From positions 1 through 5,944 of the forward strand of contig JALOPK010000217.1 in the NCBI GenBank assembly GCA_025453925.1: DNA of 5,944 nt, in the 5' to 3' direction. The notes under the pieces were generated by a model. It saw only the letters and a program-made list of their open reading frames with translations. It did not search any database and was not told the DNA's origin. The translations under genes and the position numbers were made by a program. How positions within the stretch are numbered: position 1 is the stretch's first letter; the number at the start of each line of letters is the position of its first letter. The stretch is from Candidatus Eiseniibacteriota bacterium. GTDB lineage: Bacteria; JAFGKV01. Shown in pieces: positions 1-5,944 of this stretch.

Positions 1-2612
1 GGGTAGATCTCGTACATGAGGTTGTCGCCTGCCCACCGGGGATGCTGCCCGGGCGCCAGCGGCACCGCGCCCGTGCTGTCGATTCTGACGGTGGCCACGC
101 CGGAGCCGTATCGGTCGCCGTCTCCGACGGTGAGACGCACGGCGTAGTCGCCGGCCGGCCTGGGCAGCGAAAACGACGCCTGTGCCGACCCGGTGCCGGC
201 AAGGCCCAAAGCCGCGGGATTCCCCGGTTCCTCGCTCCACTGGAAGGAGACGATGTTGCCGCCATCGGGATGGAAGGATCCGCCGCCATCGAGCGTCACG
301 AGACCCTGTGACGGTGTGACCTCGATCCTCGCCTTCGGAAGCCGGTCGGGCCGGCAGTCGTACCGGGCCCAGGTGATGCTCTGGTTGCCGCCCCCGTCGC
401 TGACCTTCAGGCCCACGTAGTTCGGCCCGTCGCCCATGGTGATGGGAACCGAGAACCCTCCGTTAGTGATGGTGATGGGCCAGACCGAATGATTGTGCAT
501 GAACAGGCCTATCGTGACCGATGGATCCGCGACCATGCCGGTGACCGTGAAGTTGCGCCAGATCCGGGTCGCCCCCGCCGAGTAGAACATCGTTTCCGGG
601 CCGGGTTGCGGGAGCCCATGGATGCTGTCGGGCGGCAGCGCCACGATTCCGCGTCCGGGGCTCATGAGCGCCACCTCACGGGGTCCGCCCACCAGCCCGT
701 CTTCGATCCAACTCCCGAGAATCCGCGGCTCCGAAGGCGGCGCCGCGAAGAAGGCGGCGTCGTAGATATCGGGGTCTTCCTCAGCCAGCCAGCCGCCCTG
801 CGCGGGTTCGAGCTCGAGTCCGGCATCGGTCCGCAGCGTGGCGATCAGACCCCAGAACCACGACGTGGAGTAGGTTCCCAGGTAGGTCTCCAGCTCCTCC
901 AGCGGCAGCGAAACGATGAACGAGCCGGTGGTCTCGGGGTCCGGATTCATGCCGATGGCCGCGCCAACCTGGATCGGATCGGCCTGGAGGATCAGCCGGT
1001 TGTCCCGTGACTCGTCGTAGAACGGAGAGGAGGGGGGCACCAGCCAGATGAACACTCCCTGGCCCTCCCAGGGCGGCGCCATGACTTCGATGTCGCCGGG
1101 GAGCGGCATCGCGGGCCCGTCGAGCGATGACACGATCATCAACCCCAGGGCGGTATGCTGGTCCACCGCGGCCATGTCGATGACCGCCTGGATGGTGACC
1201 GGATCCAGCCTCGTGGATGTGCCTACGTGGAAGGCATGGATGTCGGCGGCGCCCGGGGTTACCCCGTCGGGATACCGGTATCGGCCGGGGCCCTTGTCGT
1301 CACCGAATCCGTCGACGGCGTGGAACCCGTTGCCTGTGCCGTAGACGCCGAAGGAAAGAGTCGCCGTTCCGACCCGGCCGAGTTCGTCGACGACCCGGAC
1401 CGCCGCGCGGTGAAGCCCCGGTTCGAGCAGGGGCAGGGTGAGCGACACGAAGAGGCTCTCGCCCACGACCTCCGGGGTGACCTGCTGCGTGACGTCGTCG
1501 AGCGTCAGCAGCAGCGAGTCCGGAAGAACGGGGGTGCCCCAGTCTCCGGGTACGGCGGCGAAGCGCACCGTCGGTCCCTGCGACGCGGGCGGGATGATGC
1601 TCCCCTGAAGCCGGGCAATGTCGAGAACCCTTGGCGGTCCAAGGGGATTCGCCCGTCCCACGCTCACGTACCAGTCACCTGGACTGCGAAGCTCCAGGAG
1701 CGGATTGTCAGGATCGGGAAGGTAGAGGGTGCCGTTGGCAATGAACCGGTACAGGAAGTTCCTCCCGATCTCCATGCGAATGGAGGTCTCCCAGACACCG
1801 TCGTTGTCGTCGTCGACGAAGCGGGCCGGAGACGCGCCCCAGTTGCTGAAGTCGCCCGTGATCTGTACGCGGCTGACGTCAACCGGAAGGCCGAAGTTGG
1901 GGCTCTTGGTGTCCAACGAGAATCGCATATTCATTCTGGGCGGCCCCTGCACCAGTTGGAAGCGGGAAACCGCGGCGGCCGCGGCGCCCACGTTGTTGGC
2001 GCACGAGACTTCCAGCATATGCCACCCCATGGAGAGATCCGACCCCGGGAGGTATGACAGGCATCCGGTCTCGGCGTCGAAACTCGCTGAGCCCGTGATG
2101 TCGATACCGTCGAGCTTCATCGAGAGGCTGCCTGCATCGAGGCCGGTCTGGGTCCCGGCGGCGAAGTTGACGGAGAGGAGCGGCCGGGTGTCTTCCACCT
2201 GGCTGCTGTCACTGGGCAGGACGTAGTAGATCATCGGATCGGCAACGATGAGCACCGAGTTGTTGTAGGCGGACCCGTCAGTGAGCGGGTTGAGCGGGTC
2301 GGGATACCATCCGGTTACGTCAGGGTAGCTGCTGCTCTCTTCGGGGTCGGTGGACGAGAGGGTGACGAACTTGTAGAAGTAGTCGCCCTCGGCGAGGGTC
2401 ATGGCGCCGCGCCACACGTTGTCCTGGTCGTCATCCTGGAACACCAGGTACGAGCCGTTGGGCGGCAGGCCCCACCCGTTCATGGAGCCCAGCATGCCTG
2501 TGGCGACGTCCGGCGGCCCCACCTGGTACTCGAACCGGAAATGCACTTCGACGTCGGACGCATGCAGTGGAAACGCGATCAGGAGCAGGAGGATGGCCGG
2601 GAGGACACGCAT
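1..2612 (-). CDS. Secreted multi-modular glucan-active protein, probable GH13 alpha-amylase/pullulanase type (N-terminal 870 aa, cut by left window edge)
   Basis: The frame is open from the ATG at 2612 to the left edge: 870 codons with no stop, so the gene is partial at its 3' end. Residues 1-18 form a signal peptide (MRVLPAILLLLIAFPLHA, then SD), implying export. Modules in order: CBM48-like E-set domain about 20-125 (GSMNGWG 42-48, DDDQDNVW 60-67, DPLNP 105-109); Ig-like domain about 127-222; second CBM48-like domain about 226-318 (GDFSNWG 253-259, DDDNDGVW 267-274, DPDNP 300-304); second Ig-like domain about 326-424; a glucodextranase-C-type binding domain about 430-626, recognised from GDDKGPGRYRYP at 437-448; another beta-sandwich about 640-752; a PKD domain about 758-845; then NLMYEIY at 864-870, which looks like the first strand of a GH13 barrel. 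These modules are known from amylopullulanases and glucodextranases. No catalytic residue lies in the window, so the enzymatic role is inferred. Start choice rests on the signal peptide and a GAGGTG ribosome-binding site. An alternative is a non-catalytic surface glucan-binding protein. Confidence 0.9.
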   Translation of the reverse strand, partial: MRVLPAILLLLIAFPLHASDVEVHFRFEYQVGPPDVATGMLGSMNGWGLPPNGSYLVFQDDDQDNVWRGAMTLAEGDYFYKFVTLSSTDPEESSSYPDVTGWYPDPLNPLTDGSAYNNSVLIVADPMIYYVLPSDSSQVEDTRPLLSVNFAAGTQTGLDAGSLSMKLDGIDITGSASFDAETGCLSYLPGSDLSMGWHMLEVSCANNVGAAAAAVSRFQLVQGPPRMNMRFSLDTKSPNFGLPVDVSRVQITGDFSNWGASPARFVDDDNDGVWETSIRMEIGRNFLYRFIANGTLYLPDPDNPLLELRSPGDWYVSVGRANPLGPPRVLDIARLQGSIIPPASQGPTVRFAAVPGDWGTPVLPDSLLLTLDDVTQQVTPEVVGESLFVSLTLPLLEPGLHRAAVRVVDELGRVGTATLSFGVYGTGNGFHAVDGFGDDKGPGRYRYPDGVTPGAADIHAFHVGTSTRLDPVTIQAVIDMAAVDQHTALGLMIVSSLDGPAMPLPGDIEVMAPPWEGQGVFIWLVPPSSPFYDESRDNRLILQADPIQVGAAIGMNPDPETTGSFIVSLPLEELETYLGTYSTSWFWGLIATLRTDAGLELEPAQGGWLAEEDPDIYDAAFFAAPPSEPRILGSWIEDGLVGGPREVALMSPGRGIVALPPDSIHGLPQPGPETMFYSAGATRIWRNFTVTGMVADPSVTIGLFMHNHSVWPITITNGGFSVPITMGDGPNYVGLKVSDGGGNQSITWARYDCRPDRLPKARIEVTPSQGLVTLDGGGSFHPDGGNIVSFQWSEEPGNPAALGLAGTGSAQASFSLPRPAGDYAVRLTVGDGDRYGSGVATVRIDSTGAVPLAPGQHPRWAGDNLMYEIY

Positions 2613-3017: not shown

Positions 3018-3063
3018 CGTTCATATAGGACTAGTCCTATATAGGACACGTCCTATATGAACG
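3018..3063. repeat. Nested palindrome: tandem operator-like sites with TATAGGAC half-sites
   Basis: The outer arms CGTTCATATAGGAC (3018-3031) and GTCCTATATGAACG (3050-3063) are perfect 14-bp inverted repeats. Inside are a perfect 20-bp palindrome at 3023-3042 (centre ACTAGT) and a perfect 14-bp palindrome, GTCCTATATAGGAC, at 3034-3047. The whole can be read as a 16-bp unit, TATAGGAC-NN-GTCCTA, repeated twice head to tail (spacers TA and AC), giving four half-sites in alternating orientation at 3024, 3034, 3040 and 3050. By count, 19 of the 46 bases are G or C, far below the surrounding DNA. Paired sites for a dimeric transcription factor binding co-operatively are the simplest reading; a cruciform-forming element is the alternative. 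It lies 406 bp upstream of the start at 2612. I cannot name the regulator family. Confidence 0.75.
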
Positions 3064-3192: not shown

Positions 3193-3211
3193 TGAGGGTT
3201 CGGCCCCCTCA
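3193..3211 (-). terminator. Hairpin overlapping the esterase stop codon, possible terminator
   Basis: TGAGGG (3193-3198) and CCCTCA (3206-3211) are perfect 6-bp arms around a 7-base loop. On the minus strand the first arm starts with the esterase TGA itself, and the hairpin is followed about 5 nt later by a short T run (CGTTTTG). The T run is weak and the stem short, so termination is plausible but not certain. Confidence 0.35.
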
Positions 3212-4645
3212 CCGCGCCAGGTGGATGGCGGATGTGACGGTCCGGGCGATGCCGTCATCCACCTCGATGATGCACGGGCCGGCCGGGAGGCAGGCCGGCT
3301 GCCACGACCACGCCTGCTCATCAACCGGGATCATCCCTCGGTGATGCCGCCGCCCCGCGAGGTCATAGACAGAGATCGTCGTGGGCCCTGTTGCTCCGGC
3401 GAGGCGAAGCGTGAGGCGCGAACTGAACGGATTCGGGAAGGCCGCGAGGCGCAAGCACCCGTCCGCCGGCACCTCGGGCAAAGGCCCATCACCACTCTGC
3501 ACGCCTTCACAGAACAGCAGCCCTTCGTCGATGGTGGCCCGCCAGAGGCCCCATGAGTGGCCTTCGTGGAAGAGACGGCTCTGATGCGCGATTCCGTGGG
3601 TGTCCATCATGTCGTCGAACGATTCGATGAGCGGGATGAGTTCCTGGATGTCGTAGGAGCCCCAGTTCATGTAGATGCGGTAGGTCTCCGGTGGCTGGGT
3701 CGCGATGAGGTCGGCCTGTTCCGGGGGGATGTACGGGCTCATGATCACAAGCCGGCGGAACTGCTGGGGATAGGTTCCGGCCAAGTAGACCGAGATGTTG
3801 CCGCCATTGCTTGCGCCCATGCTTCCCCACATCGTCGGGTCACTTGGCGCGGTGGCGTACCGTTCGTTCACGAACGGGATCACGGTCTCCATGATGAACT
3901 GCCCGAAGGCCTGCTGCTGGGAACCGGCGTACTCTTCGGTCCGGTTCACGGGTGGCACGCACACGCAGATGGGCAGGGCTGCGCCAGGGTAGTGGACGGC
4001 CAGGAACGCCAACACGCGGTCGAGGTGGGCGAGGGAGAGGTATTCGAGGCCGTCGTGCACAATGAAGGTCGGATATGCTGTCGTGGAGTCGTAGCCGGGA
4101 GGCGTGACGACCCGGATGGTGCGGGTGTTGTTGAGCTGGGGGCTGAAGAATCCCTCGTAGGTGTCGATCCCACAGGGCGGGTAGCCGTAGTCGGTGATCT
4201 CGGGTGGCTGCACGTAGTCAGGCATGGCGAGCTCCGAGTTGGGGCCATAGCCGCCGGCACACGTGTGCGGGTTGAGGGGATCCAGCATCCACTCCGTGCC
4301 GTTGCGCACGAACTTGTAGTCGAGCCGTGAGTCCGATGGGCAGGCAAACTCACGGTACCAGAAGGTCGTACTCAGCACATGGATCAGGGAAAGATCGGGC
4401 GACCACCACGTCATGTCACCCGCCACCGCCATCGAGGTGGCCTGCCCGCTGTAGACGAAGAACGCCATGGTGTCCTCCTTCACCGGCGCCTCGCCACCAG
4501 GGAGGTTGGCGATGAAGCTGTCGACCAGCGCCTGCCGCTCCTGCGAGGGCGTCATGTTGAGCAAGGCCAGGAAGTCATAGAAGCCATCGGCGCGGGCCGA
4601 GGCCACGAGAACCATGATCGCGAGGGCGCAGGCGAGACGTCTCAT
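3209..4645 (-). CDS. Secreted esterase (enterochelin-esterase/esterase-D-like alpha/beta hydrolase) with N-terminal CBM48-like domain and C-terminal FlgD-like tail
   Basis: The protein has 478 residues. A signal peptide spans 1-19 (MRRLACALAIMVLVASARA, then DG). A short helical segment (about 22-50) is followed by an E-set/CBM48-like domain at about 58-145 (AGDMTWWSPD 75-84, RLDYKFVRNG 107-116, DPLNP 122-126, GPNSELAMP 134-142). The alpha/beta-hydrolase domain spans about 160-385. The nucleophile is Ser279 in GASNGG, matching the GxSxGG elbow of PF00756-type esterases; Asp332 in WGSYD is the probable acid and His363 in EGHSWGLWR the probable base; HDG at 197-199 fits the strand before the oxyanion region. 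Residues about 395-478 form a FlgD-like/T9SS-type tail (FPNPFSS, VYDLAGR). The frame stays open upstream to 4879, but the start at 4645 is preferred because it gives the signal peptide and follows an AAGGAG site. Known relatives hydrolyse siderophore, feruloyl, acetyl or similar esters; the substrate here is unknown. The glucan-binding-like module and the adjacent amylase-like gene suggest a polysaccharide-linked ester. Confidence 0.93.
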   Translation of the reverse strand: MRRLACALAIMVLVASARADGFYDFLALLNMTPSQERQALVDSFIANLPGGEAPVKEDTMAFFVYSGQATSMAVAGDMTWWSPDLSLIHVLSTTFWYREFACPSDSRLDYKFVRNGTEWMLDPLNPHTCAGGYGPNSELAMPDYVQPPEITDYGYPPCGIDTYEGFFSPQLNNTRTIRVVTPPGYDSTTAYPTFIVHDGLEYLSLAHLDRVLAFLAVHYPGAALPICVCVPPVNRTEEYAGSQQQAFGQFIMETVIPFVNERYATAPSDPTMWGSMGASNGGNISVYLAGTYPQQFRRLVIMSPYIPPEQADLIATQPPETYRIYMNWGSYDIQELIPLIESFDDMMDTHGIAHQSRLFHEGHSWGLWRATIDEGLLFCEGVQSGDGPLPEVPADGCLRLAAFPNPFSSRLTLRLAGATGPTTISVYDLAGRRHHRGMIPVDEQAWSWQPACLPAGPCIIEVDDGIARTVTSAIHLAR

Positions 4646-4722: not shown

Positions 4723-4950
4723 CCAGCAGGCTGACCTGCCGTTCGGATCGGTCATCGTCAGAGCGCCCTGAATCAGTCCAATCCGTTCGGAGAGTGGGAC
4801 ACCGCGTGGACGATCCCATGGGACTGCCGGGGGCGATGAGCGGTCCGTCTGCATCCCCCCCCGGCGGCCCTCCAGGCATCGCCCGGGAGACTCTCCTCGC
4901 CGCCGCACTGATCGTGAAGACCGTCGCGCGGCGGACCGGGCACCCGGTGT

Positions 4951-5168: not shown

Positions 5169-5944
5169 TCAGCGCATCACGATCACTTGCCCCGCCTGGA
5201 CCTCGGCTCCTGCCTCGATCCTGATCGTGTAGACGCCCTGGCCGACCTGCCGTGCATCGGCATCACGACCATCCCAGCGGACGACATGTGCACCACGGTC
5301 CTCCATGCCATCCAGCAGCGTGGCCACCTGTCTGCCCTGCAGGTCGTAGAGCGCAACCGTGACGCGTGATGCTGTGGGCAGGGCGTAGCGGATGCTCGTT
5401 GATCCGCCCGTTGGATTTGGCTGGATCGATTCGATCATCAAGACGTCGGGTCTCGCGGTGCTCTGATCACCAGTCCACGGCACCTCGCCCTCGGCATGGG
5501 CCAGGATCCGGATATCATCGATGTTCCAGCCGCAGTAGGTCCACCCGTCGTCCGTTGGCCCCATGGTCCACCGCACGAAGACCGTCGGCTGATTGTCAGC
5601 CACTGCCGAGAGGTCGACCTCCTGCTCCACCCATGCTTTATCCGCGATCTCCTCCGGGTTGGTCCACACCCTCGTCAAGGTCGTCCCGTCGTTCGACACG
5701 CTGATCGATGCCTGGTCGAACGATGGCGCCTCCACTCCCAGCCATCGCCAGAACCGCAGCCGAACATTAAACAGGCCGGTGCAGTCGATGGCACTCGTGC
5801 TCAGATGCCGCGCCGGGAGGTTGTTTGGATAGTCGCCTGCAAGGTTGTAGCCGCACACATTGACGCCCGTATGCCCGGCAGTCGGATCGGGCTCGCCATG
5901 GCTGCCACCACCTCCGGTGGGTTGGCCGAACGCCCAGTCTCCTT
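5169..5944 (-). CDS. Large exported protein, C-terminal 257 aa: MAM/jelly-roll-like domain plus FlgD-like/T9SS-type sorting tail (cut by right window edge)
   Basis: The minus-strand frame is open from the right edge to the TGA at 5171-5169. An internal GTG at 5858 is in frame, but the 28 codons upstream of it (GDWAFGQPTGGG...) clearly belong to the same domain, so this is the 3' end of a larger gene. Window residues 1-149 form a MAM-like beta-sandwich: WAFGQPTGG, NVCGYNLAGDYPNNLP, FWRWLGVE 64-71, SNDG, VADNQPTVFVRW, and GWNIDDIRIL 138-147. Such domains occur near the C-terminus of large secreted peptidases (M6- and gingipain-like) and other surface proteins. Residues about 172-257 form a FlgD-like Ig tail: QPNPTGG, IRYALP, VALYDLQGR 196-204, RWDGRD, GQGVYTIRI 235-242. 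In T9SS organisms tails of this type direct outer-membrane secretion and anchoring. The catalytic or binding part, and hence the function, lies outside the window. Confidence 0.92.
   Translation of the reverse strand, partial: GDWAFGQPTGGGGSHGEPDPTAGHTGVNVCGYNLAGDYPNNLPARHLSTSAIDCTGLFNVRLRFWRWLGVEAPSFDQASISVSNDGTTLTRVWTNPEEIADKAWVEQEVDLSAVADNQPTVFVRWTMGPTDDGWTYCGWNIDDIRILAHAEGEVPWTGDQSTARPDVLMIESIQPNPTGGSTSIRYALPTASRVTVALYDLQGRQVATLLDGMEDRGAHVVRWDGRDADARQVGQGVYTIRIEAGAEVQAGQVIVMR

Follow-up and report, generated by a model that had tools for sequence, protein, structure and literature searches.

The matS, SlmA and Noc boxes are dispersed palindromic sites, each set read by one DNA-binding protein and present in tens of copies; the element described here is likewise a dispersed palindrome with tens of copies, which are strictly intergenic and biased towards the 3′ ends of genes. 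The AphA box of Vibrio (PadR family, Vir_act_alpha_C type) is a 20-bp sequence, ATATGCA-N6-TGCATAT (PMC3440409), and at cqsS a pair of adjacent sites is occupied by AphA in a cooperative manner (PMC6855506). The present element shares with this box the 20-bp dyad and the ATAT outer ends, and a candidate PadR protein from the same genome matches AphA over near-full length; AphA has an autoregulated gene, two sites cooperatively bound at one promoter and about 49 sites per genome, while comparable regulation here is predicted. In contrast to AphA boxes, the core of the element is AGGAC rather than GCA, its dyads form a tandem pair at a fixed 16-bp spacing (double sites with this spacing at 40 of the 44 first loci), and its copies mostly lie away from start codons, near which AphA sites are found.

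cdPadR1 of Clostridioides difficile likewise recognises a pair of inverted repeats within the promoter of its own gene, and its motif has about 200 matches genome-wide (PMC5050560). The arrangement over the regulator's own promoter is alike, whereas cdPadR1 belongs to the PadR-s2 subfamily, reads another sequence with loose spacing and has been studied at promoters. REP, BIME and REPIN sequences, with their RAYT transposases, resemble the element as short extragenic palindromes in many copies with a bias towards gene ends and convergent gaps (PMC2817692, PMC3116915, PMC3733652). Unlike them, it carries no GTAG/CGTC tag, has no linked Y1 transposase, is genus-restricted with fewer than 100 copies, and has one copy built into the promoter of a regulator.

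The element in the window and its copies in one genus

The window, i.e. the whole 5,944-nt stretch of DNA that was analysed, belongs to genome G000, which was compared with a genome of the same genus (G001; JAFGKV01, Candidatus Fermentibacteria) and one of the same family (G002). Features of the window, in its own numbering, are:

3018–3031, no strand: left outer arm CGTTCATATAGGAC, of which 3018–3021 are private to the window copy, outside the family unit
3022–3059, no strand: complete 38-bp element CATATAGGACTAGTCCTATATAGGACACGTCCTATATG with two tandem dyads, the unit common to 70 loci of two genomes
3023–3042, no strand: dyad 1, ATATAGGAC-TA-GTCCTATAT, a 20-bp perfect palindrome and putative site of one regulator dimer
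3034–3047, no strand: inner palindrome GTCCTATATAGGAC, perfect over 14 bp, made by the two inner half-sites
3039–3058, no strand: dyad 2, ATATAGGAC-AC-GTCCTATAT, putative site of a second dimer
3050–3063, no strand: right outer arm GTCCTATATGAACG, of which 3060–3063 are private to the window copy
3–2612, minus strand: neighbouring gene for an 870-aa secreted-type protein with a PKD domain, running beyond the window edge
3209–4645, minus strand: neighbouring putative esterase gene (PF00756), with an alternative upstream ATG possible at 4879

The first-pass annotation had described a nested tandem palindrome at 3018–3063, AT-rich in GC-rich DNA, and its account holds for the outer arms (perfect over 14 bp), the inner palindromes, the two tandem 16-bp units and the composition (G+C content 0.41 vs 0.65 for the whole window). 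The dyad centres are 16 bp apart and the dyads overlap by 4 bp. In other copies the inner palindrome is mostly imperfect (GTCCAATATAGGAC, GTCATATATAGGAC), and the general form is a double operator of two 20-bp dyads, ATATAGGAC-N2-GTCCTATAT, 16 bp apart. The outermost 4 bp on each side are private to the window copy, because information content is at background directly beyond the 38 bp (68 copies with full flanks). It had also been noted that neither neighbouring gene starts close by, and this is the case: the 870-aa gene starts (2612, minus strand) ~410 bp from the element (409 bp), and the esterase gene presents its 3′ end across a gap of 149 bp.

A chance origin had been judged implausible, in agreement with four matches to the pattern in the window (up to three mismatches) vs 0.17 expected, and with 34 exact TAGGACNNGTCCTA dyads in G000 vs none for the reversed control pattern. 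The same dyad occurs 13 times in G001 and not at all in G002 or in the other relatives searched, and a scan with a sequence model found ~50 elements in G000, ~33 in G001 and none in G002; the proposed search of the genome thus yielded further copies, and conservation, which was to be sought in relatives, extends to the same genus and not to the same-family genome. Among 84,980 species genomes, a set that may leave out the window's own, the tandem pattern matched in JAFGKV01 alone (Candidatus Fermentibacteria). Element scores in the examined loci are separated by a clean gap, without a decaying tail (70 copies at or above 36.7, the next at 17.7). The element is a large site family restricted to a single genus of Fermentibacterota, an uncultured phylum. 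Viral contigs contained no match to either pattern, and a phage or viral origin was rejected on this ground.

In orthologous gaps, identity of the element is 82–92%, compared with 28–43% over the 60 bp on either side (four pairs: L029/L039, L010/L042, L023/L085 and L079/L041), and the element is under purifying selection. The numbers of copies in the two genomes, with none in the same-family genome and scan matches in JAFGKV01 only, exclude the earlier suggestion of a scar left by a lost regulator, which the conservation against randomised flanks also refutes. The pair L019/L046 was left out of the identity comparison because of a near-identical DNA stretch alongside. There, a gene without a Pfam match lies beside the element (L019:138–824 / L046:192–878) and includes long stretches of DNA that are near-identical between the species, in contrast to ~75% protein identity elsewhere; recent transfer is possible.

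At the centres of the two dyads, the dinucleotides covary in the pattern of a single 38-bp hairpin, being fully complementary in 20 of 70 copies vs 9.2 expected, while direct identity of the two centres is below expectation. Selection for a hairpin was rejected, since despite this covariation fully complementary centres are found in only those 20 copies; the covariation may stem from template-switch repair of quasipalindromes.

Placement relative to genes and turnover

Copies are intergenic and placed towards 3′ ends. With gene contexts taken from simple codon-bias gene calls on the extracted loci, none of 74 copies falls within a called gene, though coding sequence makes up 79% of what was examined. 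Convergent gaps hold 23 of the 55 copies with both neighbours called, a four-fold enrichment over the 11% background (p ~3e-9), and 19 of 21 co-directional copies are closer to the 3′ end. Starts account for 51 of the 129 gene ends that face a copy, at a median distance of 316 bp and with two within 100 bp, and no concentration of sites near the start codons of a regulon was seen among these ends. Promoters are avoided, and some copies sit in divergent gaps. The proteins encoded alongside are diverse (formate-tetrahydrofolate ligase, EF-G, SAM synthetase, ABC transporters, secreted proteins), with no common pathway or function found among them; a metabolic regulon was rejected because the neighbouring genes are unrelated in function. 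Promoters for hidden genes were likewise rejected, -35 boxes being at background level except at one gene, padR (see below). The first-pass idea that the neighbouring gene has a long leader finds no support: most copies are at 3′ ends, and no consistent -35 box was found at copies outside the padR promoter.

For ~31 copies of G000 the orthologs of neighbouring genes could be examined in G001; in nine cases the corresponding gene end there carries an element and in ~22 it carries none, i.e. about 70% of testable copies are missing from the orthologous end. Alignments of empty sites at L080 and L005 involve intergenic DNA too diverged to show a clean 38-bp insertion.

The candidate regulator and the proposed explanation

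One gene stands out in both genomes:

G000, contig C333, 426–989: padR, AphA type; ortholog in G001, contig C276, 5973–6536

Its 187-aa product has PadR and Vir_act_alpha_C domains (74% identity between G000 and G001), its best solved relative over near-full length is AphA (1YG2, E 6e-24), and a TonB-dependent receptor gene lies directly behind it. padR is the sole gene that starts less than 100 bp from a copy in G000 and G001 (20 and 17 bp, respectively), and the element overlaps its promoter, TTGACT-N17-TATATA in G000 and TTGACA-N17-TATATA in G001. The TATATA -10 box is formed by the leftmost bases of the element, and at position 1 both genomes have T in place of the usual C; a near-consensus -35 box with an element-made -10 box is found in both species at the padR copy only. 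Regulator and site co-occur across the three genomes of the family compared: both are present in G000 and G001, while the closest PadR of G002 is a 33% homologue that is not ortholog-like and elements are also absent. None of the other PadR genes of G000 and G001 is on a contig with a catalogued element. When ten more of the nearest genes with starts facing a copy were examined, the only other regulator was an ArsR-family gene, 225 bp from a copy in G001 (L037). The earlier statement that the palindrome has no partner gene is correct only for its neighbourhood; genome-wide, this AphA-like padR is a likely partner, encoded elsewhere.

The favoured reading, with a probability of roughly one half, is a high-affinity double operator for the AphA-type PadR that is autorepressing at padR and provides boundary sites elsewhere. 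Two PadR dimers would sit next to each other, one on each 20-bp dyad. Binding of the element by the AphA-like PadR is, on balance, probable, and the assignment of this partner, which draws on a single orthologous promoter, a match at the level of the fold family and the resemblance of half-sites, is likely. Given the copy in its own promoter and the likeness to AphA (20-bp ATAT-ended dyad, two sites cooperatively bound), autorepression by two dimers would be the natural reading of the padR copy; since the operator overlaps a sigma-70-type promoter, PadR should repress both its own gene and the TonB-dependent receptor gene behind it. Two ideas first drawn from the palindrome, a double operator read by a dimeric regulator and a regulon-like set of sites, gain support from the ~50 genomic copies and from a padR with a site over its own promoter.

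Other copies, including that of the window, lie between transcription units, mostly past gene ends and between convergent genes, where bound PadR might form a fixed boundary (by blocking read-through or antisense transcription, or as a nucleoid anchor) rather than a promoter switch. Such a role at gene ends is tentative; both it, for the non-promoter copies, and PadR binding are what we infer here. A repressor would normally have more promoter targets, the genes beside the copies have no pathway in common, absence from ~70% of orthologous ends is fast turnover for boundary elements, and the partial covariation of central dinucleotides is not predicted by simple dimer binding, all of which count against the respective parts of the explanation. 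It is more speculative, and rather doubtful, that in one genus an AphA-like PadR, once a local repressor, has come to serve as a boundary protein across the whole genome, with dozens of double sites between transcription units coinciding with a reshuffling of gene order between species. The isolated palindrome becomes part of a site-protein pair that can be put to the test, from an uncultured phylum. Should the PadR partner be correct, the copies of a repressor-type operator mostly avoid promoters and are found at the ends of genes and at breaks in synteny; a transcription factor used in this way, as a transcription boundary or chromosome organiser, would be unusual.

Alternative readings and gene order

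REPs are known for intergenic, 3′-end and convergent-gap placement and for promoter avoidance. The main rival is a REP/REPIN-like dispersed palindromic repeat, copied into the least harmful gaps, either kept as a parasite or put to use in supercoiling or termination, with the padR copy a lucky insertion. The same placement is found here, with all copies intergenic; the 70% turnover between two species and the hairpin-like covariation of the dyad centres also fit, and point mutation alone is unlikely to have created dispersed 38-bp copies. However, neither a GTAG-type tag nor a conserved tetranucleotide or flank was found beside the palindrome, and the RAYT link is also missing: Y1_Tnp genes are present, none of them near a copy and their contigs without a catalogued element within 28 kb, and G002 carries Y1 transposase genes yet lacks the element. 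The clean gap in scores in place of a decaying tail, the lack of target duplication or direct-repeat excess at the borders (which old insertions could have lost) and the use of the element as a -10 box in both padR promoters further reduce this reading to an unlikely one, with perhaps a quarter of the weight; a MITE or transposon with target duplication was rejected, as no direct-repeat excess is present at the borders. If the PadR partner is wrong, a new REP-like repeat class without RAYT would be equally worth describing. A transcription terminator or RNA hairpin at gene ends would agree with copies at 3′ ends and with single strands that fold strongly (DNA parameters), but there is no T-run, and no T enrichment or conserved flank outside the 38 bp, each dyad has a two-base turn, the full stem is broken at the centres in 50 of 70 copies, and divergent gaps and the padR promoter contain copies too; with T-run and Rfam match both absent, this highly improbable reading was rejected.

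A site-specific recombination or rearrangement site is also improbable, though less so. Two inverted arms of 16 bp flank a core of 6 bp, often asymmetric (AATATA), in a loxP-like layout, and exchange between copies would reshuffle operons. Element gaps are indeed synteny breakpoints: genes flanking a G000 copy are adjacent in G001 in 5 of 19 cases vs 13 of 16 for other gaps of at least 100 bp in the same loci (p=0.002), a comparison with a small control set and some gene pairs scored by hand. Convergent or divergent control gaps are conserved in 8 of 9 cases (p=0.004), or in 8 of 11 when two L082 gaps of ambiguous status are scored as broken (p=0.02). This coincidence is suggestive only, as an association without established causality. 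The neighbours in the window are themselves split in G001, esterase and 870-aa genes being on separate contigs (C194 and C286), and the upstream side of the 870-aa gene has room there. An apparent partner exchange and contig ends of G000 near copies somewhat above expectation (both below) are in keeping with recombination. Most broken partners in G001, however, lack an element at the orthologous end, so exchange between elements is not the general route; the 6-bp core is variable, and a non-systematic look linked no recombinase to the copies.

In the apparent exchange, one G001 element (L089:5000–5037) lies between convergent genes A and B, each of which in G000 retains a 3′-end element of its own with a new partner (L078:672–709 and L014:3348–3385). 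A truncated gene of the window (5169–5942) shares 72% identity with a papain/lectin-like/FlgD-Ig secreted protein encoded at two of these loci (L089:2482–4926, L078:982–3459), and its relatives adjoin an element in both genomes. Seven contig ends of G000 (C279, C435, C241, C271, C466, C103 and C201) are less than 200 bp from an element vs 2.7 expected (p=0.016), which may point to variation between strains or to assembly problems at these places.
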